Positions 2,152 to 41,655 of a stretch of DNA of 64,000 nt are shown piece by piece. Every line of letters starts with the position of its first letter. Position 1 is the first letter of the stretch. Under the pieces are notes generated by a model. It had not been told where the DNA came from, did not search any database, and saw nothing but the letters and a program-made list of their open reading frames with translations. The position numbers were made by a program, and so were the translations under genes. The stretch is from assembly GCA_002707025.1 (NCBI GenBank), contig PALG01000032.1:124001-188000 (forward strand), in the 5' to 3' direction. This DNA is from Flavobacteriaceae bacterium (GTDB taxonomy: Bacteria; Bacteroidota; Bacteroidia; Flavobacteriales; Flavobacteriaceae).

Positions 2152-3161
2152 ACGGATTGGCTTTTGTGAATTTTAGGAGGGTTAAAAATAATTCCATACC
2201 ATCCTAAGGTTCTCCCCAGTGCTTCACTAAGGGCTGCTTTTCGATGAGGCCCTTTAAAGGCATTAACATACCGGACCAAAGTAAGTAACAATGCGGTAAT
2301 ATGCCACTTACACCTGGCTTTCATACTTGGTTTTGGATACCTTACCCGCCAAACATACCATCCATTACGCACTACCATTTTTCCATACAGAAATTGGTTA
2401 GGCCTACCTAAGGGTTCATGAAAATGATATAATTGAGCAGCAGTATTTACATATAAAGGACCTTTTTTAGAAAGCCGAAGGGTAAAATCGGCATCTTCAT
2501 ACAAACCGTAACCTTCAAAATATGCAGAAAAGTTCAGGGATTTAAAAACATTCTTTTGGTAAGAGGCCACCCCTCCCATAAACTGTTCCACAGAATAAAT
2601 CTTTCCAGAGGGTGGTAAAAAACTAACACTTCTTCCGTGTGAAAAATCGGGCAAATGTGCAGGAGGTCTATCTGTATCTAGCCCGACCCTTTTCCGTAAT
2701 ACAAATCGAGCCCCGTCTTTTCGAACCCAACCATCATAAGCAAATTGATTCTGTGCTACTTTCTCGTTTTTTCCTAGAGGTCTCCAGTCTATTTCATTAA
2801 TAATATATCCTCCCACACCCAATGCTTCTGGAAAACGCTTATAAGTACCTATCAATTCTTTGAAATAATTGGGGGTCAGTACGATGTCATCATCTAAAAA
2901 ACAAACAATATCCATATTAGAAGCCACATTCTTAATCCCAAAATTTCGTTGTTTGGTTAACCCTCTTTGTGCTTCAGGAACTTTATAATAGATAAGATTT
3001 TGAAAAGTATGAAGCATAAGAATCTCTTGGGTTGCAGTATCCACAGAACCGTCTATGACCAATATTTCATGAGGATATAGGGTTTGCTCCTTCACTGAAT
3101 GAAGAAGCTTCACTAAGGGTTTGGGCCTTTGGTAAGTACAGATGATTAAGGAAAACCTCAC
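2148..3161 (-). CDS. GT2-family glycosyltransferase (GTG start)
   Basis: A GT-A inverting glycosyltransferase. The N-terminus FSLIICTYQRPKPL is the GT2 opening. The metal-binding DDD is at about residues 90-92 (FLDDDIVL) and a GYGLYEDADFTLRL segment supplies the catalytic ED. I choose the GTG at 3161 because it overlaps the stop of the gene before it as GTGA, matching the ATGA junctions around it, and places the GT2 strand right at the N-terminus. A TTG at 3200 would extend it by 13 residues and overlap the previous gene by 43 bp, which is less likely. About 337 residues. Confidence 0.87.
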   Translation of the reverse strand: MRFSLIICTYQRPKPLVKLLHSVKEQTLYPHEILVIDGSVDTATQEILMLHTFQNLIYYKVPEAQRGLTKQRNFGIKNVASNMDIVCFLDDDIVLTPNYFKELIGTYKRFPEALGVGGYIINEIDWRPLGKNEKVAQNQFAYDGWVRKDGARFVLRKRVGLDTDRPPAHLPDFSHGRSVSFLPPSGKIYSVEQFMGGVASYQKNVFKSLNFSAYFEGYGLYEDADFTLRLSKKGPLYVNTAAQLYHFHEPLGRPNQFLYGKMVVRNGWYVWRVRYPKPSMKARCKWHITALLLTLVRYVNAFKGPHRKAALSEALGRTLGWYGIIFNPPKIHKSQSV

Positions 3162-4195
3162 GTTTTTAGAAACTTTTTTAATTCTTGGTGCCAATAACAA
3201 AAGTAATGATGCCTTATTAAATACGCTTGATAAAGCTTTCTATTATTTTTTTGCATTTCAACAAAACCCTCCTCCGTCATTTTCGAATGAAAGGCAACAA
3301 TTTGCTCTATCCAATCTTCTTTAGGGTTCACTCGGCAAATATGCTCATTCCAAGGAATGATCGATTCTAGTGGTAAAGAAACATCGGTGTCCAATAACAC
3401 CGGAATACGACCACACGCCAAGCTCTCGTAAAACCGAACAGAAAAATTTCCAGCACCCCTTAAACAAAAAGTATATGGGCTCGCTATCATATTCTGGAAA
3501 AATTCTTGAGTGGTATGCTTTCTTTCTATTTCTGAATGAGCCCCAGCCCGATATTTTTTCCGTAAAATAAAATGTGTACGAATTCTAGAATCCTTTTGAA
3601 TTTTTTTTAAAAACTGATTTCTTCTGAAAGCCACAGGAAAAAAGGATTGCTTATCCGAAAGATCTTTCTTTAAAAGCCGTAAAAAATTTCGCCTGTAATG
3701 GGCCAATAGATTTAAAAACCATTCACTTCGACTCCCACTGGCGTACCCCGTAAAGGAAATCTCTGGGATAGCTTGATAAGGCAGGTAGGTTAAGGAGGGT
3801 ACCCAAGTGCCTATAGGGTCTTCTATAAAAGTAGGGCAAATATACGTTTGTGAAGCGTTGGTCGTTTTAAAACCTCCAAAACGAAGTGTCATAATTTCCG
3901 GTTCCTGAAATGTACGCCCATAATCCCCGCCTGTGTAGACCCATAGTTTTTTTTTAAGGTATTTCGCTTGGGTTAGCATACGTTGAAAAGCTTTCTTTCC
4001 CTTACCTTCCACAGCTTTATTTATTTCTAAAGGAAAGATCAAAAAGTGAGCCTCTTCAGGGGTTTCTACGAGTTGAAACTTTTCAAATAAAATGGATGCT
4101 GCCTTTTCGTAATAGCACAAATCGAATAATAGTGGAAAAACTTTAGAGCGGTTCTCCGGAGTTAGAAACTCTTGGTATGTGTAAAGCTTTATCAT
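3158..4195 (-). CDS. Exostosin-like (GT47-type) glycosyltransferase
   Basis: About 345 residues. The C-terminal third contains SPYTFCLRGAGNFSVRFYES followed by LACGRIPVLLDTD, the hallmark of the exostosin/GT47 fold seen in heparan synthases and in some bacterial capsule loci. The start at 4195 (MIKLYTYQEF) overlaps the preceding stop as ATGA; an upstream codon at 4228 would add an unlikely cysteine-rich stretch. GT47 enzymes often transfer uronic acid, galactose or xylose. In a locus that also makes UDP-hexosaminuronic acid, a uronosyl donor is conceivable, but this is inference. Confidence 0.8.
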   Translation of the reverse strand: MIKLYTYQEFLTPENRSKVFPLLFDLCYYEKAASILFEKFQLVETPEEAHFLIFPLEINKAVEGKGKKAFQRMLTQAKYLKKKLWVYTGGDYGRTFQEPEIMTLRFGGFKTTNASQTYICPTFIEDPIGTWVPSLTYLPYQAIPEISFTGYASGSRSEWFLNLLAHYRRNFLRLLKKDLSDKQSFFPVAFRRNQFLKKIQKDSRIRTHFILRKKYRAGAHSEIERKHTTQEFFQNMIASPYTFCLRGAGNFSVRFYESLACGRIPVLLDTDVSLPLESIIPWNEHICRVNPKEDWIEQIVAFHSKMTEEGFVEMQKNNRKLYQAYLIRHHYFCYWHQELKKFLKT

Positions 4196-13969: not shown

Positions 13970-15114
13970 AGCAATGTTTCCGTGGCAATTTTATGATAGC
14001 AAGTTAGTACTTCCTTTTGAATGTGCGCAAATGCCCACTGTTCTTTTTTTTGCTGGTTGTATTGAAATGCGGTTCCCCAAAGTGTTTCAGAAGTAAGTGC
14101 TTGGGCAATTGTTTTAGCTATAGCGGGCACGGCTTCTTCATCCTCAATTAAAAAGCCGTTCATTCCAGGAGTGATCACCTCAGCCGTAGCGCCTCCCGGA
14201 TTCGATTGTATGGGAAAGGCGCCCATTCCTATCGCCTCCAACAAAGTATTAGGCATTCCATCACTTTGACTATTTCCTATGTACACCAAACTTTTTCCCA
14301 TTTCCTCGAGTAGGGCTTTATGGGGCATCATTCTTTTTTTGGTGGAAATGATTTCCATAAGGTCTGTCAAGGCCTTGTGTTTCTGAATAAACGCCACTAC
14401 TTCATCATCCGCTCCAAATACTTTCCAGTTAAAGCGCTCCCGAAGCCCTACTTCTAACTGTAGGACCGACTTTAACACAGCGATGGCCCTCCCAGATCGA
14501 CCTTCATAACCTTTAATGAGAATCGTTTCCCGTTCTGTAGGTGGTTTTACATAAGCTTGGTATTGATTCCAATGAAATCCGCCTCCCCCTGGAAATACTC
14601 CCAGAGCCGTTCCTTTAAATCCTAATGCTGCGGCTATTTTTTGGTCCCGAAGGGTATCGGAAAACATATAATCGATATGTGGCAAAACAGTTTCCAAATC
14701 TTTCCGGTGGTTGGGCAACTCCTTGTAGTAAAACAAATCGCTCCCCCAGGAAGAATAAACCCACTTTAGTTTTGGGTACCGTAACATCACGGGGAAAATA
14801 GGAACACAGCACGCATACATCACAAAAGTATGTACCACATCGGGTTGCACTTCTTTTAGGACTTTTTCAAAAGCTTTTTCCACATTATTTTCCAGCGCTT
14901 GATGCACCCATGGCAGTTTTTTCTTAAGCCAGGTTCTCCCCTTAAAATCGCCCCCCTTATAGCGCCATTGGGTATGCTGCGTGACCCAAGGAAGGTTTTT
15001 ATTGTAGCCTCCATTTAAAATATCGAACCAATGCACTTCATGGCCAGAGCTTTCCAACTGGGAAGTCCACCGGGTAAAATGTAGTGACGGTATGGATACC
15101 ATGAGGATTTTCAT
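13966..15114 (-). CDS. GT4-like glycosyltransferase
   Basis: 382 residues. MKILMVSIPSLHFTRWTSQL is a GT-B N-terminus and YSSWGSDLFYYKELPN is an acceptor-side loop found in capsular GT4 enzymes. SQSDGMPNTLLEAIGMGAFP then SNPGGATAEVI forms the donor site with E-x7-E spacing. It is coupled to both neighbours through ATGA overlaps. Specificity is unknown. Confidence 0.88.
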   Translation of the reverse strand: MKILMVSIPSLHFTRWTSQLESSGHEVHWFDILNGGYNKNLPWVTQHTQWRYKGGDFKGRTWLKKKLPWVHQALENNVEKAFEKVLKEVQPDVVHTFVMYACCVPIFPVMLRYPKLKWVYSSWGSDLFYYKELPNHRKDLETVLPHIDYMFSDTLRDQKIAAALGFKGTALGVFPGGGGFHWNQYQAYVKPPTERETILIKGYEGRSGRAIAVLKSVLQLEVGLRERFNWKVFGADDEVVAFIQKHKALTDLMEIISTKKRMMPHKALLEEMGKSLVYIGNSQSDGMPNTLLEAIGMGAFPIQSNPGGATAEVITPGMNGFLIEDEEAVPAIAKTIAQALTSETLWGTAFQYNQQKKEQWAFAHIQKEVLTCYHKIATETLL

Positions 15115-28280: not shown

Positions 28281-29573
28281 TTAAGTTACTTTCGAAAAAG
28301 TCCAAGGCATTTTTATTTTCAATGGCGCCCGGCTTTTCCCCATCCATTCTCCCAATTTCCGACTATTTTCCAATACTTGAAATGAAATTATATCTTCCAA
28401 TCTTAAAATCACTTCCCGATTATTCTTAACAAACAAAACATTTACAAAAAACTCTTCAGAATTAAAAAAATGGGAAGGAAACCTAACCGAAAACTCTAAG
28501 ATTCCTAGAGTTTGTGAATTGTCTATATTTTCAACAAGACCACTTCCGCTACTAATCACAAAATTACCCGTTGAGTCTTTAATTTGAATTGTAGTGTCAA
28601 TTTTTACATTCTGGATTTTTTTATCAAAACGAATTTTAAACTCAATCTCGTCTTCAAACTCAATGGGCTCTTCCAATTGTTTATGAAGAGCTCCCACACT
28701 TAAAGAAATTGGAACAAAATAGGGGTTTCTATCAACTTCCTTATCCTCAAAATGAACGTAATTTCTAATTCCCTTAGCAGAAGAATCCATTTTTAAATAA
28801 TAATCCACCGCTTCATCGGTATCCCCATCAAATACCACGGTACCATGTTCCAAAACGATGCCTCGGGTACACAAGCTTTTTACAGCGGCCATATTGTGGC
28901 TTACAAACAACACCGTACGGCCTTGGCCTTTGCTAATGTCCTGCATTTTACCTACCGCCTTTTTTTGGAATTCGGCATCCCCTACGGCTAACACCTCATC
29001 GACCACCAAAATATCGGGTTCCAAATGGGCCGCCACGGCAAAGGCCAATCGTACCCGCATCCCACTACTGTAACGTTTTACCGGGGTATCTATATACATC
29101 TCACAACCACTAAAGGCCACAATCTCTTCTTCTTTGCTTTTTATTTCGGCTTTGGTCATACCCAAAATAGCACCATTCAAATAAATATTTTCCCGTCCGG
29201 TGAGCTCGGGATGGAAACCGGTCCCTACTTCCAACAAAGAAGCAATGCGCCCACGGGTTTTAATAACCCCAGTGGTAGGGCTGGTTACTCGGGACAATAT
29301 CTTTAGCAACGTACTTTTTCCAGCTCCATTTTTACCGATAATGCCCAACACTTCGCCTTCCGCTACCTCAAAATTGATATCCCGCAGTGCCCATACATAA
29401 TCTTCTTGGGCCTGGGCGCTACGGTTATTGACGGCCCCTATGGTTAAAAAGGGGTCTTCCTTTCCACGCACTCGATACCACCAACGGGTTAAGTCATCTT
29501 TTAAAGTACGGCTTCCCACCAATCCCAAGCGGTATTGTTTGCTAATATGGCTAACGTGTAAAATGGTACTCAT
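28281..29573 (-). CDS. wzt: ABC polysaccharide exporter ATPase (Wzt) with C-terminal cargo-binding domain
   Basis: 430 residues. The nucleotide-binding domain spans roughly 1-255: GIIGKNGAGKSTLLKILSRV (Walker A), RYSSGMRVRLAFAVAAHLEP (signature) and DILVVDEVLAVGD (Walker B). From about 258 to 430 there is a beta-rich extension (IEFEDEIEFKIRFDKKIQNV and so on), the Wzt_C jelly roll that recognises a terminal modification in O9a-type export. By hand count DNA coding the C-terminal part is about 30% G+C (28381-28800) and DNA coding the adjoining NBD about 50% (28801-29040). The domain therefore looks exchanged along with the sulfotransferase gene behind it. Confidence 0.95.
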   Translation of the reverse strand: MSTILHVSHISKQYRLGLVGSRTLKDDLTRWWYRVRGKEDPFLTIGAVNNRSAQAQEDYVWALRDINFEVAEGEVLGIIGKNGAGKSTLLKILSRVTSPTTGVIKTRGRIASLLEVGTGFHPELTGRENIYLNGAILGMTKAEIKSKEEEIVAFSGCEMYIDTPVKRYSSGMRVRLAFAVAAHLEPDILVVDEVLAVGDAEFQKKAVGKMQDISKGQGRTVLFVSHNMAAVKSLCTRGIVLEHGTVVFDGDTDEAVDYYLKMDSSAKGIRNYVHFEDKEVDRNPYFVPISLSVGALHKQLEEPIEFEDEIEFKIRFDKKIQNVKIDTTIQIKDSTGNFVISSGSGLVENIDNSQTLGILEFSVRFPSHFFNSEEFFVNVLFVKNNREVILRLEDIISFQVLENSRKLGEWMGKSRAPLKIKMPWTFSKVT

Positions 29574-29713
29574 GGTTGTACGCGATCTCTTTTTTGAGGT
29601 GGTTGCAGTCCTTGGGGCCTCGCAACACCGTTTGTTTTCGTTTTTAATTTAGGCTCTAAAATAAGCATATCTTCACATTTAACCAGCGCTTCCCTACCTT
29701 GTATGACACAAAA

Positions 29714-29797
29714 GGGCGCTTTTTTCCACTTTTGGGCCTTTTTTTCCACTTTAGGGCACTTTTTTCCGTTTTAGGTCACTTTTTTCCTTTTTTGTCC
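29714..29797. repeat. About four tandem copies of a 20-bp unit
   Basis: Imperfect head-to-tail copies of a unit like GGCACTTTTTTCCGTTTTAG (20 bp, first copy 21), all rich in T on the plus strand and A on the minus strand. Each copy has a long T run followed by CC, so the array should be strongly curved DNA. It lies between wzt and the 11-bp array. Confidence 0.8.
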
Positions 29798-29815: not shown

Positions 29816-29903
29816 ACTTCGGCTTTACTCCCACTTTACTTCGGGTTATCTTCGGCTTTACTTCGGGTTATACTCCACTTATACTGCACTTATACTCTAC
29901 TAT
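29816..29903. repeat. Eight tandem copies of an 11-bp unit
   Basis: Exact 11-bp phasing with units such as ACTTCGGCTTT, ACTTCGGGTTA, TACTCCACTTA and TACTGCACTTA; eight units without indels. The same unit family, in the same orientation, forms the array at 35380-35511. An 11-bp period is about one helical turn. Confidence 0.88.
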
Positions 29904-29986
29904 ACCCTTAGGTTATTGCTTACTACGGCCCAAAATCCCATTCAAACACTACCCATCATTGCTTTTTGCGCCTTGTTCCCTGTTTC

Positions 29987-30796
29987 CTATTTCCACGGAC
30001 AAACCGCTAGGAGTCCGTGTTTTAGAGACTCCAAAACTTCCGTATCGGGTAGGGCCGGATACCATTCCATATAGTGCTTCCAGGCTGCTATGTCTTGTAT
30101 TTCGGTTTCCATTTCGGGTTGGTAAGGGGGCAGGGCCACACTTTCAAAATAGTCCCGGTATTTTATGCCATCGCCAAACACCCGATCCGAAAATTGGGCC
30201 CATACCGCCGGAATCCCATACGCATGTGGAACAATCAATCCGTGTAACGAAGACGAAATAATGCTTTCGCAGCTAAGGATTTCCCGCGTGGTAGCTTCTA
30301 TATCGTTGGTAAAAAGGGAAATCACCTTTACGCCCTCTAGGTTTTGGTATTGTTCACTTACTTGGGCGTAATCGCTGATATGCGGAATGATGCCCAAGGC
30401 ATGGGTTTTGGCAACTTCAGGTTGGTAATAATTGGGTAATAGCAAAGCAGGATCTCCATACACTTCGGGAACCGCATAGCCTTTTTCCAACAAATACGTT
30501 CGGGTTTGTGGTCCCCGTACGGCCAGGAAAGTTGCAGCAGGCACTTGCGTATCCCTAGAAATAATACCACTTCCCCAAACAATCCATCCTTTTTTAATAT
30601 GTCCCAAAATGCTACCAATCGTAGCATAAACTTTCTTGGAAAAGAACCATCCTTGGGCTTTTTTGGGGTCTATCCACTGGACTGGCCTTCCCGAAATTTT
30701 TTCAACTAGGTATTTACCCAACAAATCCCCATAATTTTCCCTATCCTTCTTTTGAATAAAGATTTCGCTCCACCAGTATAGAGGGATGTGCTTCAT
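29987..30796 (-). CDS. Polysaccharide pyruvyl transferase-like protein
   Basis: 269 residues. GDLLGKYLVEKISGRPVQWI at the start, TFLAVRGPQTRTYLLEKGY in the middle (the R-G-P-x-T/S motif), VYGDPALLLPNYY, then LSCESIISSSLHGLIVPHAYGIP (the SxHG-xxxxHAxGIP motif) are those of the pyruvyl transferase/CsaB family. Members add a 4,6-ketal pyruvate to a sugar using PEP, or act as related transferases. It would add acidic charge to the glycan. It is fused to the wzm stop by 1 bp and lies between the two exporter genes. Confidence 0.87.
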   Translation of the reverse strand: MKHIPLYWWSEIFIQKKDRENYGDLLGKYLVEKISGRPVQWIDPKKAQGWFFSKKVYATIGSILGHIKKGWIVWGSGIISRDTQVPAATFLAVRGPQTRTYLLEKGYAVPEVYGDPALLLPNYYQPEVAKTHALGIIPHISDYAQVSEQYQNLEGVKVISLFTNDIEATTREILSCESIISSSLHGLIVPHAYGIPAVWAQFSDRVFGDGIKYRDYFESVALPPYQPEMETEIQDIAAWKHYMEWYPALPDTEVLESLKHGLLAVCPWK

Positions 30797-31662
30797 TATA
30801 CCGTATCAATAAAGCTTTTCTCTGTTCTATTGAATATTACAAGGCCTATTAAAAACAAGACCACCGAAACGAACAGGGTATAAAAAAACCCGCTCCACGT
30901 AAAAGTGCCGGTATCCAGCAACATATAACGGAAGCCTTCTATAATTTGCGTCATTGGGTTATAGGTAACTAGATTGGCCAAGGAAGGAGGAAGTTTGTCA
31001 ACCGCTTCACTCACCGGATAAGGCACCGCAGAAATATACATCAACAGATTGGTGGCAAACCCAATAAAAACATTGAGGTCACGGTATTTGGTGGTAAGAG
31101 CCGAAAATACCATGCCCAAGCCCAAGGCAAACATCGCCATGATAGCAATATACACTGGAAAAAGCAATAGGTTTAAATTAACGGAAAGTTCAAACCCTTG
31201 GTAACTGTAATAGGCAAAAAAGAAAAAGAAAATCAATAATTGGATGCCAAATTTCATCAAGTTGGATACCGTAATCGATAAGGGGGTAATAACCCTTGGG
31301 AAGTACACCTTTCCAAAAAGGTTTTGGTTTCTGGAAAAGGTATTCGAAGTATTATTCAAACATTCCCGAAAATAATTCCACGCGGTAATCCCGGCTAGGT
31401 TGAACAACATTGGGGGAATGCCTCCCGTTTGAATATTCCCTAAATTGTTGAATACCAACGTAAATATGATAGAGGTAAATAACGGCTGAATAAAAAACCA
31501 CAGAGGCCCTAAAATAGTTTGCTTATAAACGGTGGTAATATCCCTTTTTACAAATAGGATCAACAAATCTCGATAACGCCAAATCTCCTTAAAATTAAGG
31601 TCTATTAGCTTCCGTTTGGCCGATATTTCATACAGCCAAGGCTCTTTAGGGTTCGGGGTCAT
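30796..31662 (-). CDS. wzm: ABC-2 type polysaccharide exporter permease (Wzm)
   Basis: 288 residues with six predicted membrane spans. These include ILGPLWFFIQPLFTSIIFTL, GIQLLIFFFFFAYYS, NLLLFPVYIAIMAMFALGLG, FATNLLMYISAVPYPVS and FFYTLFVSVVLFLIGLVIF. The N-terminal YRDLLILFVKRDITTVYKQT is the cytosolic amphipathic stretch of Wzm/KpsM/TagG. It partners Wzt to move the finished lipid-linked chain across the inner membrane, so assembly should be ATP-driven rather than Wzx/Wzy-dependent. Confidence 0.93.
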   Translation of the reverse strand: MTPNPKEPWLYEISAKRKLIDLNFKEIWRYRDLLILFVKRDITTVYKQTILGPLWFFIQPLFTSIIFTLVFNNLGNIQTGGIPPMLFNLAGITAWNYFRECLNNTSNTFSRNQNLFGKVYFPRVITPLSITVSNLMKFGIQLLIFFFFFAYYSYQGFELSVNLNLLLFPVYIAIMAMFALGLGMVFSALTTKYRDLNVFIGFATNLLMYISAVPYPVSEAVDKLPPSLANLVTYNPMTQIIEGFRYMLLDTGTFTWSGFFYTLFVSVVLFLIGLVIFNRTEKSFIDTV

Positions 31663-31749
31663 AGTAGGTGTTCATGAAGTTGCAAGATACTATTTTTTAA
31701 CAATTCCGAAGAAGCATCCCTTAAGAATTCACTCTTTGTGAAAATTCTT

Positions 31750-32505
31750 TCAAACCTTCCAATCGCTACAGTCCCAATCTAAGGTTTTTTCTAGCGCTAA
31801 GATGTCATTTTCGTAGGTCTTTAACAGAAACGTTTTCGATTCTTTATCCAAAACTTCTGAATAGTCTCTCGCATGAATCTTCTTGGGCTCATAGGCAAAC
31901 TGGCCTGCTTGAACTCCCAAAAACCGAAACACTTTTTCTAAAGACATCTCTTGGGCTGTTATAAAATCCTCGTATTTAATAAATAAGAGTTGTTCTTTGG
32001 GAAACAAACCTAGCATGTTGCGTACTTGAGCATGGTAAAACCCTCTCTTCACATAAGAAGTAATACGATCTTTTTGATCATTTGTCATATCTGCTTGTAT
32101 TGCCTCCAAAAATCCTCGGGACTCCTTGCCCCTGGATACTTCCATATTCCAATGGGAAAAAGCCCTATCCACAGGGTTACGAAGAATGGCAATCAATTTC
32201 ACTTGTGAATGATAGGCCTTAATGCGCTCCAAAGCTTGATCCCAAAACATATAAATAGGAGTAATTTCGCCATGGAGTTTGGAAGACAGGCGGGTATCAA
32301 AAAATCGATGATAGGAACGATAATTTGTACGGGAAGTAGAAAAAAAAGCGTCATGATCAAAAAAATGGACTTCCTTTCTTTTGGCCAAAGCTAACTGTGG
32401 GTGTTGCCTTAGGTAATAATCCAATGCCGAAGTTCCTGCCTTTTGTGCTCCCACGCATATAAAATCAACTTTGAATCTATGGAAACCTAAAAAGTGACCC
32501 CCCAT
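31750..32505 (-). CDS. Sulfotransferase-domain protein
   Basis: 251 residues. DFICVGAQKAGTSALDYYL is the 5'-phosphosulfate loop, KRKEVHFFDHDAFF corresponds to the K-E-x-H-F-F segment of heparan-type enzymes, and LIAILRNPVDRAFSHWNMEV is the 3'-phosphate motif. It is closely related to the gene at 27431-28267 and is probably a paralogue or a convergent recruit from the same family. It occupies the start of the exporter cassette; 87 bp without a gene separate it from wzm. Confidence 0.9.
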   Translation of the reverse strand: MGGHFLGFHRFKVDFICVGAQKAGTSALDYYLRQHPQLALAKRKEVHFFDHDAFFSTSRTNYRSYHRFFDTRLSSKLHGEITPIYMFWDQALERIKAYHSQVKLIAILRNPVDRAFSHWNMEVSRGKESRGFLEAIQADMTNDQKDRITSYVKRGFYHAQVRNMLGLFPKEQLLFIKYEDFITAQEMSLEKVFRFLGVQAGQFAYEPKKIHARDYSEVLDKESKTFLLKTYENDILALEKTLDWDCSDWKV

Positions 32506-32515
32506 ATAAAATAGT

Positions 32516-33502
32516 TTAAGCAGGTGCTATAAAATAGTTCCAAGTAATCTTCATCCCTTCCTGTACCGAGAACTTAGGGTCGTACCCCATGAGTTTTTTT
32601 GCCTTCTCGATATTGGCCAAAGAATCCCGTACATCACCTTTTCGGGGAGGGCCATAGGTAGCGGTGATTTCCTTTCCGGAGGTCTCCTTCAAGGACTTCC
32701 AAAGGGTATTCAAACTAATACGTTCTCCATACGCCACGTTAAATACTTGGTTTACTGCTTCAGAAGGGGCAAACATCGCTTTAAGATTCGCTTGGACGGC
32801 ATTCTCCACATAGGTAAAGTCCCTTGTTTGCTCCCCATCGCCATTGATCGTGGGCGCCTTTTCATCTTTTAAGGCTTGCATAAACAACGGAATCACCGCA
32901 GCATAAGCACCCTTTGGGCTCTGCTTGGGGCCAAAAACATTAAAATAACGCAAGCCAATGGTTTCTATGCCATAGGTTTTATGGAACACATCGGCGTACA
33001 GTTCATTGACCAATTTGGTAACCGCATAGGGGGATAATGGTTTCCCAATGACGTCTTCCACTTTGGGAAGGTTCTTGCTGTCGCCATAGGTGGAACTAGA
33101 AGCTGCATACACCAATCGCTTTACGGAAGAGCTCTCCTTTTGGGCTACCAACATATTTAAAAAACCCGTGACATTTACTTCGTTGGAGGTAATGGGGTCG
33201 TTAATAGACCTTGGAACCGATCCCAATGCGGCTTGATGGGACACATAGTCCATTCCCCGCACCGCTTTTTTACAGGTTCCCAAATCGCGAATATCCCCTT
33301 CCATAAATTCGAAAGCAGGATGATTTTCATATTCCTTTAGGTTTTCTTTAAAGCCCGTAGCCAAATTATCCAGCACCCGCACTTTTTTAGCACCGTATTT
33401 CAATAAGTACGCCACCAAATTGGAGCCAATAAATCCGGCACCTCCAGTGACTAAAAAGGAGTAATTTGATAATTCTTCAGTATGATAAACGTTTTCGTAC
33501 AA
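32516..33502 (-). CDS. wbpP: UDP-N-acetylhexosamine 4-epimerase (WbpP/TviC-like)
   Basis: 328 residues of the short-chain dehydrogenase/epimerase family. FLVTGGAGFIGSNLVAYLL is the NAD site, YAASSSTYGD...SPYAVTK gives the Ser and Y-x-x-x-K catalytic set, and YFNVFGPKQSPKGAYAAVIP is the substrate loop, as in WbpP and TviC. With the WbpO/TviB-like dehydrogenase nearby it should convert UDP-GlcNAc(A) to UDP-GalNAc(A). That supplies a uronic acid building block, matching the acidic character of the locus. Confidence 0.92.
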   Translation of the reverse strand: MYENVYHTEELSNYSFLVTGGAGFIGSNLVAYLLKYGAKKVRVLDNLATGFKENLKEYENHPAFEFMEGDIRDLGTCKKAVRGMDYVSHQAALGSVPRSINDPITSNEVNVTGFLNMLVAQKESSSVKRLVYAASSSTYGDSKNLPKVEDVIGKPLSPYAVTKLVNELYADVFHKTYGIETIGLRYFNVFGPKQSPKGAYAAVIPLFMQALKDEKAPTINGDGEQTRDFTYVENAVQANLKAMFAPSEAVNQVFNVAYGERISLNTLWKSLKETSGKEITATYGPPRKGDVRDSLANIEKAKKLMGYDPKFSVQEGMKITWNYFIAPA

Positions 33503-33529
33503 TTTATTTGAGTTAAATGTTAATAGAAA

Positions 33530-33883
33530 TTAGTCATTGTGTTTTCTGATATGATTTCGATACCCTAAAAGCAACTTTCTCTGGATGGTAATTAAATCTA
33601 ATACTTCTTTACTCTCTAAAGTATATTTCAATCGAACAGCAATGATGTATTGCGTTTCCACTTCCGCCAAGGAACCCAAGGCAACCGAAATGAACTGTAA
33701 TAACTCCTTGTTACTTTTTCTGGCACTACCTTCAGCTATGGTAGAAGGAACTGAAACAGCAGCTCTACGTATTTGCGAGCTAAGCCCAAATCTTTCTTCC
33801 CCAGGAAAACCTGAAGAAATTTTATAAATAATTGCTGCCAAATCAATCCCCTTCTTCCAAACATCTAAATTCTTGTGATCCAT
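33530..33883 (-). CDS. Four-helix bundle (S23-type) protein
   Basis: About 117 residues from the ATG at 33883 (MDHKNLDVWKKGIDLA). LDVWKKGI, FPGEERFGLSSQIRRAAVSV and PSTIAEGSARKSNKELLQFI are the signature of the four-helix bundle/23S intervening-sequence protein family, which also includes the diversity-generating retroelement factor Avd. No reverse transcriptase is here. Such genes occur commonly inside flavobacterial polysaccharide loci with unknown function. A start at 33916 would add 11 residues. It lies between epimerase and dehydrogenase genes, with a 7-bp tandem repeat upstream. Confidence 0.9.
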   Translation of the reverse strand: MDHKNLDVWKKGIDLAAIIYKISSGFPGEERFGLSSQIRRAAVSVPSTIAEGSARKSNKELLQFISVALGSLAEVETQYIIAVRLKYTLESKEVLDLITIQRKLLLGYRNHIRKHND

Positions 33884-33929
33884 TTTATTACATAGTATCT
33901 GATTTAGGGGAGTCACTGCATTCTTAACT

Positions 33930-33977
33930 ATTCACCATTCACCATTCACCATTCACTATTCACTATTCACTATTCAC
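33930..33977. repeat. Seven tandem copies of a 7-bp unit (ATTCACC/ATTCACT)
   Basis: Three ATTCACC followed by three ATTCACT and a partial ATTCAC in perfect 7-bp phase, 47 bp upstream of the four-helix bundle gene start. On the transcribed strand the unit reads GTGAATA/GTGAATG. Length variation by slippage is possible. Confidence 0.9.
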
Positions 33978-33998
33978 AAATAAATAGCATAATAAGTG

Positions 33999-35282
33999 CT
34001 ACAATCTACCATCAATAGTGGAAGGATCCAAAAAAGCCTTGACATCAAAAATCACCGATGGATTCTTAGCCAAGGAAGGAATATCCAATGTTTTAAATTG
34101 GTGATGCGCTACGGTTAAAACCACGGCGTCATAATCGTTTCTCAATTTGGAAGCATCGGTTAGCAAATCTTTTCCAAATTCATGGGCCACTTCTTCCGCG
34201 TTGGCCCAAGGGTCGTAAATCGTGACATTCAAATTGTATTTTTCCAATTCTTCCACCACATCAATCACCTTGCTGTTTCGAATATCGGGACAGTTTTCCT
34301 TAAAGGTAATCCCCAACACCAAGACTTTGCCTCCTTTAACCTTACAATCTTTCTGAATCATCAGCTTCACTACTTCATGGGCCACATAGCTCCCCATTCC
34401 ATCGTTCATTCGGCGTCCGGCCAAGATAATTTCAGGGTTATACCCCTCCTCCATGGCCTTTTGAGCCAAATAGTAAGGGTCTACCCCAATGCAGTGTCCG
34501 CCTACCAATCCAGGAGTGAATTTTAAAAAGTTCCATTTGGTACCGGCCGCTTCCAAAACCGCTTGGGTATCGATGTCCAAAAGCCTAAAGATTTTGGACA
34601 GTTCGTTCACAAAGGCAATATTGATATCCCGCTGGGAATTTTCAATGACCTTAGCCGCCTCGGCTACTTTTATGGAAGGAGCCAAATGCGTCCCTGCCGT
34701 AATTACCGAAGCATATAAAGTATCCACATATTGAGCCACTTCGGGCGTAGAACCCGAGGTCACTTTCAAAATCTTGGTCACGGTGTGCTCTTTATCCCCA
34801 GGATTGATACGCTCTGGCGAATAGCCCGCATAAAAATCTTTGTTAAAAGTCATCCCCGAAAACTGTTCCAAAATAGGTACGCAAATATCTTCGGTGACCC
34901 CTGGATATACGGTAGACTCATATACTACCACATCGCCTTTTTGAAGCACTTTACCCACGGTTTCACTCGCCTTTTCCAAGGGAGTGAGTACCGGTTGGTG
35001 ATGCTTGTTGGTAGGAGTAGGAACCGTCACCACATATACATGGGCCGCTTGTAAATCTTCAGCCTTAGAGGTTACTTTAAGGCCGTTTTGGGAAGCTTTC
35101 AATACGTTTTGCAGCGCATCTTCCGTCACCTCCAAGGTTCCATCTTTACCAGCTTGTAGTTCGGCGACCCGCTTTTCATTGATATCAAAACCAATAACAG
35201 GGTATTTTTCAGCAAAAGCTACGGCGAGCGGGAGCCCCACATAGCCCAATCCAATAATCGCAATGGTAGGATTTTCTTTCAT
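33999..35282 (-). CDS. wbpO: UDP-N-acetylhexosamine 6-dehydrogenase (WbpO/TviB-like)
   Basis: 427 residues in the UDP-glucose/GDP-mannose dehydrogenase family. IAIIGLGYVGLPLAVAFAEK is the NAD site, VTSGSTPEVAQYV and KVAEAAKVIENSQRDINIAFVNEL form the middle domain, and GGHCIGVDPYYLAQKA carries the catalytic Cys. ITFKENCPDIRNSKV and a C-terminal UDP-binding domain follow. The wording is that of the UDP-GlcNAc/GalNAc branch that yields the uronic acid. A consensus promoter box lies 21 bp upstream, so this gene probably begins a transcription unit. Confidence 0.94.
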   Translation of the reverse strand: MKENPTIAIIGLGYVGLPLAVAFAEKYPVIGFDINEKRVAELQAGKDGTLEVTEDALQNVLKASQNGLKVTSKAEDLQAAHVYVVTVPTPTNKHHQPVLTPLEKASETVGKVLQKGDVVVYESTVYPGVTEDICVPILEQFSGMTFNKDFYAGYSPERINPGDKEHTVTKILKVTSGSTPEVAQYVDTLYASVITAGTHLAPSIKVAEAAKVIENSQRDINIAFVNELSKIFRLLDIDTQAVLEAAGTKWNFLKFTPGLVGGHCIGVDPYYLAQKAMEEGYNPEIILAGRRMNDGMGSYVAHEVVKLMIQKDCKVKGGKVLVLGITFKENCPDIRNSKVIDVVEELEKYNLNVTIYDPWANAEEVAHEFGKDLLTDASKLRNDYDAVVLTVAHHQFKTLDIPSLAKNPSVIFDVKAFLDPSTIDGRL

Positions 35283-35302
35283 AAATATCTTCTAACAAGG
35301 TG

Positions 35303-35310
35303 CAAAGATA
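35303..35310 (-). promoter_or_regulatory. Promoter -7 box before the UDP-sugar dehydrogenase gene
   Basis: TATCTTTG on the minus strand is a perfect TAnnTTTG match, 20 bp ahead of the start codon at 35282. No clean -33 TTTG was found. It lies between the 11-bp repeat array and the gene. Confidence 0.6.
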
Positions 35311-35379
35311 CATAGCTTAACCGAGAAATGAAGAAAAGCGTTCTATTAATAAATGGTCATGATTTTAAGTTTCAAGGTA

Positions 35380-35511
35380 AAGCTGGAGATAAGTCGGGGA
35401 TAAGTCGGGGATAAGTCGGATATACTTCGGATATACTTCGGGTCTACTTCGGCTTTACTTCGGCTTTACTTCCAGTTATACTCCACTATACTCCCAGTAT
35501 ACTTCCACTCA
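35380..35511. repeat. Twelve tandem copies of an 11-bp unit
   Basis: Twelve units in exact 11-bp phase: AAGTCGGGGAT (two copies), AAGTCGGATAT, ACTTCGGATAT, ACTTCGGGTCT, ACTTCGGCTTT (two), ACTTCCAGTTA, TACTCCACTAT, ACTCCCAGTAT and ACTTCCACTCA, plus a degenerate first unit. Several units are shared with the array at 29816-29903. This is the main content of the 339-bp gap 35283-35621; the rest of the gap showed nothing apart from the promoter box. Confidence 0.9.
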
Positions 35512-40885: not shown

Positions 40886-41655
40886 TTTACCAAGCAAAAT
40901 CCTATATTCAATTTCTTCGGAAGTCGAAAAACCAACACGGAATTCATTCACCGTTTGTATACGATTTTGCTACCAAATGCCTTTATAACAAAACTAAATT
41001 TGATTCGTATGCGCTTCTGAAGCGGTTCAGAAAAGATTTGGCGAAAAACAAGGAAACTATTGTCGTAGAAGATTTCGGAAAAGGGTCCAGGGTGTTTACT
41101 TCCAACCATAGAAAAGTATCCAAAATTGCCAAAAATGCAGGCATTCGCAAAAAAAGGCAGAAAATGCTCTTTCGTATTAGCAACTATTTTCAACCCAAAG
41201 AAACCCTAGAGCTGGGTACTTCTCTGGGATTGGCAACCGTCGCTTTGGCATTAGGAAATACGGGCGGGCAGGTTACCACCATAGAAGGATGCCCCAATAC
41301 AGCCAAAAAAGCGAAAGCACAGTGGGAGAAATTTCAGCTGAAGAACATCCTTCTTCAACAAACGACATTTGAAGGTTTCTTTGAAAAAGATACTTCTCAC
41401 AAATACGATTTGATCTATGTAGATGGCAACCACGACAAGGAAAAAACCCTTCAATACTTTCAGCTCTTATTAAAAAAAGTACATAACGATTCCTTAATTA
41501 TATTCGACGATATTTACTGGAGCAAGGAAATGACCCAAGCCTGGCAGGAAATTATAAAAAACGATACGGTAACCGTTAGCATCGACACTTTTTATTGGGG
41601 TATTGTTTTCTTCCGAAGGGAACAAAGAAAACAACATTTCGTGCTTAGAGTGTAA
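40882..41655 (+). CDS. Class I SAM-dependent O-methyltransferase-like protein
   Basis: 257 residues. The SAM site is TLELGTSLGLATVALALG near residues 110-128, followed by VTTIEGCPNTAKKAKAQWEK and DLIYVDGNHDKEKTLQYFQ. This is the catechol O-methyltransferase-like fold. About 100 basic residues precede it (SYIQFLRKSKNQHGIHSPFV), a feature of a conserved Bacteroidota group of unknown substrate. Translation is probably coupled to the ABC-F gene by the ATGA overlap. Confidence 0.88.
   Translation: MIYQAKSYIQFLRKSKNQHGIHSPFVYDFATKCLYNKTKFDSYALLKRFRKDLAKNKETIVVEDFGKGSRVFTSNHRKVSKIAKNAGIRKKRQKMLFRISNYFQPKETLELGTSLGLATVALALGNTGGQVTTIEGCPNTAKKAKAQWEKFQLKNILLQQTTFEGFFEKDTSHKYDLIYVDGNHDKEKTLQYFQLLLKKVHNDSLIIFDDIYWSKEMTQAWQEIIKNDTVTVSIDTFYWGIVFFRREQRKQHFVLRV

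Follow-up and report, generated by a model that had tools for sequence, protein, structure and literature searches.

Tandem 11-bp arrays beside flavobacterial capsule-export genes and their possible origin in a CIY-IKL control region

Two arrays of an 11-bp tandem repeat are found within a capsule-export locus of a Flavobacteriaceae bacterium, in a 64,000-nucleotide stretch of DNA (assembly GCA_002707025.1, contig PALG01000032.1, positions 124,001 to 188,000; hereafter the window). One array lies upstream of the ABC-export ATPase gene wzt (site 1) and the other upstream of a UDP-glucose/GDP-mannose dehydrogenase family gene (site 2). Sequence comparison indicates that site 1, together with an adjoining 20-bp partner array, and a third copy in the same genome (site 3) probably derive from the intergenic control region of a gene pair designated here CIY-IKL. 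Site 2 is a related 11-bp array that stands alone. The reading as a whole, in which copies of the CIY-IKL control region perhaps control wzt and the dehydrogenase gene, is considered evenly poised; the control of these two genes by the array copies is its more doubtful part.

At site 1, eight 11-bp units (29816..29905) lie on the minus strand, which is that of the downstream gene wzt. Read on this strand, the 11-bp array is followed by four units of a 20-bp A-tract array, each composed of two 10-bp half units (29713..29792, minus strand), then by 140 bp and the start of wzt (28281..29573, minus strand; Pfam ABC_tran, with Wzt_C just below the cut-off). Site 2 comprises 11-12 units (about 35386..35511, minus strand) upstream of the dehydrogenase gene (33999..35282, minus strand; assigned by Pfam). 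Both 11-bp arrays were thus recovered where the original prediction had placed them, in a common orientation and with the words ACTTCGGCTTT and TATACTCCACT in both, and the 20-bp array adjoining site 1 had been missed. The perfect 11-bp phase claimed there was slightly overstated, because the register is held overall but single 12- or 10-bp steps occur, as in ACTTCGGGTTAT followed by ACTCCAC. Both arrays are genuine and exceed what chance produces. Tandem Repeats Finder (TRF), run on 60 first-order Markov versions of the window, returned no period-11 row scoring at least 45, and the top score at any period in any version was 66, while the real rows scored 45-72 at period 11 and 64-80 at periods 22 and 33. 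A- or T-tracts of four or more bases are absent from the 11-bp arrays of both sites. Between site 2 and the start of the dehydrogenase gene, the word TATCTTTG (35303..35310, minus strand) forms a promoter-like box of the type TAnnTTTG, the Bacteroidetes promoter consensus, and the same word occupies the corresponding place in four relatives (G255, G408, G128 and G388; handles beginning with G, C and L denote genomes, contigs and loci). Among six strands subjected to RNA folding, some stability was seen for the plus strand of site 2 (z -2.2; 5/200 shuffles) and none for the others.

Kinship between the copies, and with the DNA upstream of IKL, is what suggests their origin. The genome containing the window (3.05 Mb in 33 contigs) holds site 3 on another contig, with an 11-bp part at G000:C27:41373-41462 and a 20-bp part at 41501-41569, compound as at site 1, and the two sites are colinear over 204 bp with a score of 217 (best of 50 mononucleotide shuffles, 41). 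The 11-bp array is followed by a 10-bp array toward the position that IKL would occupy at both sites 1 and 3, and site 2 has the 11-bp part only. The longest identical word measures 36 bp between sites 1 and 3, 31 bp between sites 2 and 3, and 17 bp between sites 1 and 2. Furthermore, the 20-bp array of site 1 is homologous to one beside IKL: over 66 bp, 60 bases (91%) agree with the array that precedes IKL in G128 (score 102, best shuffle 28), and the shared stretch lies at about -214 to -149 from wzt and at about -233 to -168 from IKL in G128. Since this array is both homologous and similarly spaced, wzt occupies the place that IKL would hold. Site 3 also matches an IKL upstream region (score 69, best shuffle 31), and site 2 matches such regions in its 11-bp part only, for example in G124 (54, against 31 for shuffles). 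Because no IKL or CIY genes adjoin sites 1 to 3, these are termed copies or relics and not full cassettes.

IKL, a name coined here, denotes a protein family of about 250-265 amino acids that recurs at array loci, with seven distinct copies in about 440 kb of array-selected, partly overlapping DNA and none in a background sample of 1.6 Mb (80 stretches, each of 20 kb, taken from 11 genomes). With a query taken from an array locus, it was detected at E 1e-20 in 88 of 397 genomes of the family, including all eight genomes that carry CTTCGG arrays; at E<1e-30, a cut set after the data had been seen, it was found in 7 of 8 array genomes and in 14 of the 389 remaining ones. Of 35 IKL genes (two with less than 600 bp of upstream DNA being excluded, and two pairs among the 35 being 90-95% identical to each other), 16 have an 11-bp array and nine a 10-bp array within 1.2 kb upstream, against two and two downstream. 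When the seven genes found via arrays were omitted, 11-bp arrays remained upstream of 10 of 28 and 10-bp arrays upstream of 8 of 28, compared with 29 and 12 of 1205 control open reading frames from the 80-stretch sample, a control that also includes arrays within coding DNA (Fisher p about 3e-9 each). In six of the seven cases with both periods, the 10-bp array was the closer to IKL.

The order and the periods recur beside IKL in several genera despite differing unit letters: GGGGATAGGGT and AAAAACGGAC in Altibacter, TGGGTTATCCG and TGGAAAAAAG in G128, and ATACACCATCT and ATTTGTGTCG in G203. The single IKL match of the window's own genome (on C25) is likewise preceded by an 11-bp and then a 10-bp array, of TACTACGAGGA type and TACGTTTTCA respectively, with letters unlike those of sites 1-3. 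Array length also changes in whole units: between two Altibacter cassette copies there is a difference of 22 bp in the 11-bp array, and the 10-bp array shows three gaps of 10 bp. In addition, 9 of 16 IKL upstream regions have a TAnnTTTG box on the side of the arrays nearer IKL, 100-230 bp ahead of the start, where 0.08 would be expected per region. Phasing of A-tracts was clear in G128 (0/2000 shuffles) and moderate at site 1 and in the IKL copy of the window's own genome (34/2000 each).

As to what IKL is, no match near the cut-off was obtained for three proteins against Pfam, NCBIfam and PHROGs, for six further members against Pfam, or for two proteins in PADLOC. Searching Protein Data Bank sequences with IKL profiles likewise gave no match, and AlphaFold prediction from five sequences gave no usable model (mean predicted local distance difference test score 39). 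Genes for restriction-modification, Cas1, OLD-like, GmrSD or KAP NTPase proteins occur within about 10 kb of several IKL loci chosen by eye (L131, L138, L356, L364, L365, L366 and L367). Downstream of some IKL genes come a DUF5675 gene and a small gene of unassigned role, and other IKL genes adjoin an SNase-family gene (L361 1253-2168, L362 7114-7748, L371 3292-5466 and L388); these neighbours hint at a larger IKL cassette.

The partner CIY, also named here, is a protein of about 70 amino acids whose gene faces IKL across the arrays. With a profile derived from CIY copies adjoining IKL, 109 places were found in 76 of the 397 genomes; 97 of them have an IKL match less than 5 kb away, 91 being oriented divergently to it, and the remaining 12 have none within that distance. 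CIY and IKL are therefore mostly divergent neighbours; the median distance between matches is 261 bp, and the two co-occur in 71 of the 397 genomes (hypergeometric p about 2e-55). CIY adjoins arrays both in relatives and on C25 of the window's own genome (G000:C25:21646-21834). Arrays do not accompany every facing pair: among seven pairs inspected, G330 has 7-, 8- and 10-bp rows and no 11-bp row, G110 has 7-bp rows only, and G226 has no 7-, 8-, 10- or 11-bp rows and a reading frame in the gap. A Marivirga plasmid carries a facing CIY-IKL pair with a short 11-bp array between the genes and a DUF5675 gene downstream, and it also encodes a site-specific integrase.

Altogether, the fully developed region would consist of an 11-bp array, a 10-bp array, a promoter-like box and IKL, in that order. 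We infer that the conserved property is spacing near a helical turn, because a small protein, for which CIY is the obvious candidate, or bent DNA would use this spacing to act on the promoter just downstream. The persistence of period (10 and 11) and order while the letters differ is as expected if spacing were what matters. The original prediction is partly supported overall, in that helical phasing, with the phased protein binding it had raised, is compatible with the present sequences. Array copies at wzt and at the dehydrogenase gene may put both under similar control. A more far-reaching version appears rather improbable, namely a regulatory module conserving spacing and not sequence, in which CIY reads the 10/11-bp phased arrays and controls IKL, and in which the capsule-export genes wzt and the dehydrogenase gene captured array copies whose slippage tunes surface polysaccharide.

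Several observations weigh against the derivation from, and control by, a CIY-IKL region. No IKL remnant was found at sites 1-3 (no match better than E 0.93), and no CIY remnant was present in the window or in L139, that is, at any of the three sites. Site 3 is flanked by unrelated genes, one of the AhpC/TSA family and a convergent one of the DinB superfamily, so that the position of IKL holds no gene and the neighbour is convergent. Site 2 has no 10/20-bp partner array, and at site 1 no TAnnTTTG box occurs within 330 bp of wzt. Most IKL genes are array-free, 18 of 28 having no period-11 row and 20 of 28 no period-10 row upstream; A-tract phasing is absent from both Altibacter copies and from site 3; and array orientation relative to the next gene is mixed in relatives. 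Finally, three CIY proteins gave no Pfam family match, and DNA binding by CIY is putative.

A three-unit pattern matched 8 of 397 family genomes, with 37 matches in total, and the reversed pattern used as a control matched four other genomes once each. A similar pattern applied to GTDB contigs returned 74 stretches, in which the Flavobacteriaceae include Altibacter, Xanthomarina, Bizionia, Hanstruepera, Winogradskyella, Gelidibacter and Psychroserpens; the stretches outside this family are scattered over other groups and may be of independent origin. Arrays of another 11-bp unit, AGTGTATGGAT, occur in Altibacter and Xanthomarina with no IKL in the covered stretch (L250 2159-2309 and L132 5465-5502), and the Verrucomicrobia bin Ki1-2-7m_bin-117 contains many CCTTCGGATAC arrays of 11-bp period (L141, L154, L159, L168, L173, L176, L177 and further loci).

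When the 30 best dehydrogenase homologues, including that of the window, are compared, an 11-bp array precedes the gene in the window and in its three closest counterparts, with differing letters: ACCCGAAGTAA-like units in G255 (three units, detected by pattern and by eye and not by TRF), ACGGCTTAGAT in G408 and TTATAGTATGG in G128. The other 26, one of which has no upstream DNA, have no period-11 row there. In 8 of the 30, the gap between the dehydrogenase and epimerase genes holds 7-bp arrays of many letter types instead. Near polysaccharide genes, further 11-bp arrays were found in G130, where one precedes wzm, and in G124, at a distance of two genes from wza; arrays stand at other genes at the inspected sites in G061, G252, G408 and G027 and at second sites in G124 and G130. 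The search of the genome and its relatives thus yielded a third copy and eight array-bearing family genomes, and the link to polysaccharide loci is partial: the dehydrogenase, wzm and wza sites in relatives speak for it, and site 3 and the other inspected sites speak against it.

The main and serious rival is that the arrays are neutral minisatellites, which strand slippage creates and shortens in long gaps under weak constraint and which have no function, their link to IKL arising merely from long upstream gaps in which arrays survive. This is somewhat less probable than the reading preferred here, and several observations suit it: lengths shift by whole units, unit letters drift freely, 7- and 8-bp arrays occupy similar gaps, site 3 sits between convergent genes, and no 11-bp array precedes 18 of the 28 IKL genes. 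In the background sample, intergenic arrays numbered 11 at period 11, nine at period 7, six at period 8, none at period 10 and at most three at each other period, although a single genome contributes 7 of the period-11 arrays, and 6 of the 11 genomes were chosen for having arrays. However, slippage alone does not readily account for the order of 11 then 10 toward IKL in six of seven cases, or for the excess of arrays upstream of the 35 IKL genes (16 and 9) over those downstream (2 and 2). Nor does it fit the absence of period-10 intergenic arrays in 1.6 Mb (score 40) against 8 of 28 IKL upstream regions (at a looser score of 36), or the 20-bp letters common to the window and G128.

Alternatively, CIY-IKL and its arrays might together form a mobile unit, of which sites 1-3 would be solo ends left after gene loss. 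Partial copies are dispersed, the distribution is patchy with several copies per genome, the Marivirga plasmid copy lies alongside a site-specific integrase gene, and restriction-modification, Cas1 or OLD-like genes are near some IKL genes, at loci chosen by eye. However, no filled and empty pair of sites was obtained: in the one attempt, with an Altibacter IKL, the second Altibacter genome gave no homologue of the neighbour gene. IKL was also absent from viral contigs in two scans, and the IKL of the window's own genome from phage records. On balance, this explanation is regarded as unlikely, though it deserves consideration.

The original prediction had proposed that recombination between the arrays swaps or deletes the module lying between them, the genes of which (pyruvyltransferase, wzm, sulfotransferase, epimerase, four-helix protein and dehydrogenase) it had listed correctly, as Pfam confirmed. 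Relatives keep one core order, wza-wzc-(sugar transferase)-dehydrogenase-epimerase-wzm-(pyruvyltransferase)-wzt, whether or not they have arrays; G113 and G220 lack an 11-bp array in this region and have a pyruvyltransferase gene between wzm and wzt, and G255 has the site-2 array with neither the site-1 array nor the pyruvyltransferase gene. Although the arrays are directly oriented and the sulfotransferase, four-helix and pyruvyltransferase genes do vary among relatives, module swapping is not supported and was rejected as very improbable, because gene order is independent of the arrays, these genes also vary where relatives have no such 11-bp arrays, and the longest identity between sites 1 and 2 is 17 bp, against 36 and 31 bp with site 3.

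The four-helix gene (PF05635) lies in the dehydrogenase-epimerase gap in the window (33530-33977), in L379 (G388; 14641-15061) and, as judged by eye, in L307 (G096; 2782-3358), and it lies in the wzt-wzm gap instead in G276 (L386 4024-4509). In relatives, it is flanked by 7-bp arrays seemingly inverted to each other, and other relatives have such arrays in the dehydrogenase-epimerase gap where the gene is missing. Its changing place and these arrays give it the look of a mobile unit.

If spacing is conserved and letters are free, searches for conserved motifs would overlook control regions of this kind. The CIY-IKL pair, present in 71 of the 397 sampled family genomes, has no convincing family match among the proteins searched (some IKL members, and three CIY proteins against Pfam), and the arrays offer a direct test case for phase-dependent control and for slippage-driven variation of flavobacterial polysaccharide export. 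No account of 11-bp arrays in flavobacteria was found in the open-licence literature of PubMed Central (PMC), and the CIY-IKL gene pair is undescribed as far as these searches and libraries reach.

The arrays can be compared with several known systems. Plasmid centromeres and iterons include R1 parC, whose 11-bp repeats are bound by ParR. The arrays described here share with parC the 11-bp direct repeats beside a gene for a small protein, the product being a candidate binder only; unlike Par and iteron centromeres, they have no identified Par genes, their letters vary between relatives, and nearly all cases seen are chromosomal. Phased A-tract DNA occurs upstream of promoters, and some copies here likewise have a 10-bp A-tract array upstream of a promoter-like box. 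In contrast to such DNA, phasing is clear in some copies only, and A- or T-tracts of at least four bases do not occur in the 11-bp part of site 1 or in site 2. Prokaryotic satellites resemble the arrays in being intergenic tandem repeats in dispersed families, whereas the parts of that account considered here contain no Bacteroidetes 11-bp family and no gene link (PMC6749651). TAACTGA and other heptamer direct repeats have been described in Beggiatoaceae, Cyanobacteria and Bacteroidetes, with proposed roles in regulation or rearrangement (MacGregor, 2015; PMC4679880). TAACTGA was rejected as a class for the present arrays, the units of which are 11 and 10/20 bp. Both are short intergenic direct repeats found in Bacteroidetes, and long heptamer arrays are accompanied by further heptamers within one gap; the heptamers have period 7 and fixed letters, unlike the period of 11/10, the changing letters and the link to one gene pair seen here. 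In period, the 7-bp arrays in and near the window (33927-33977) resemble those heptamers.

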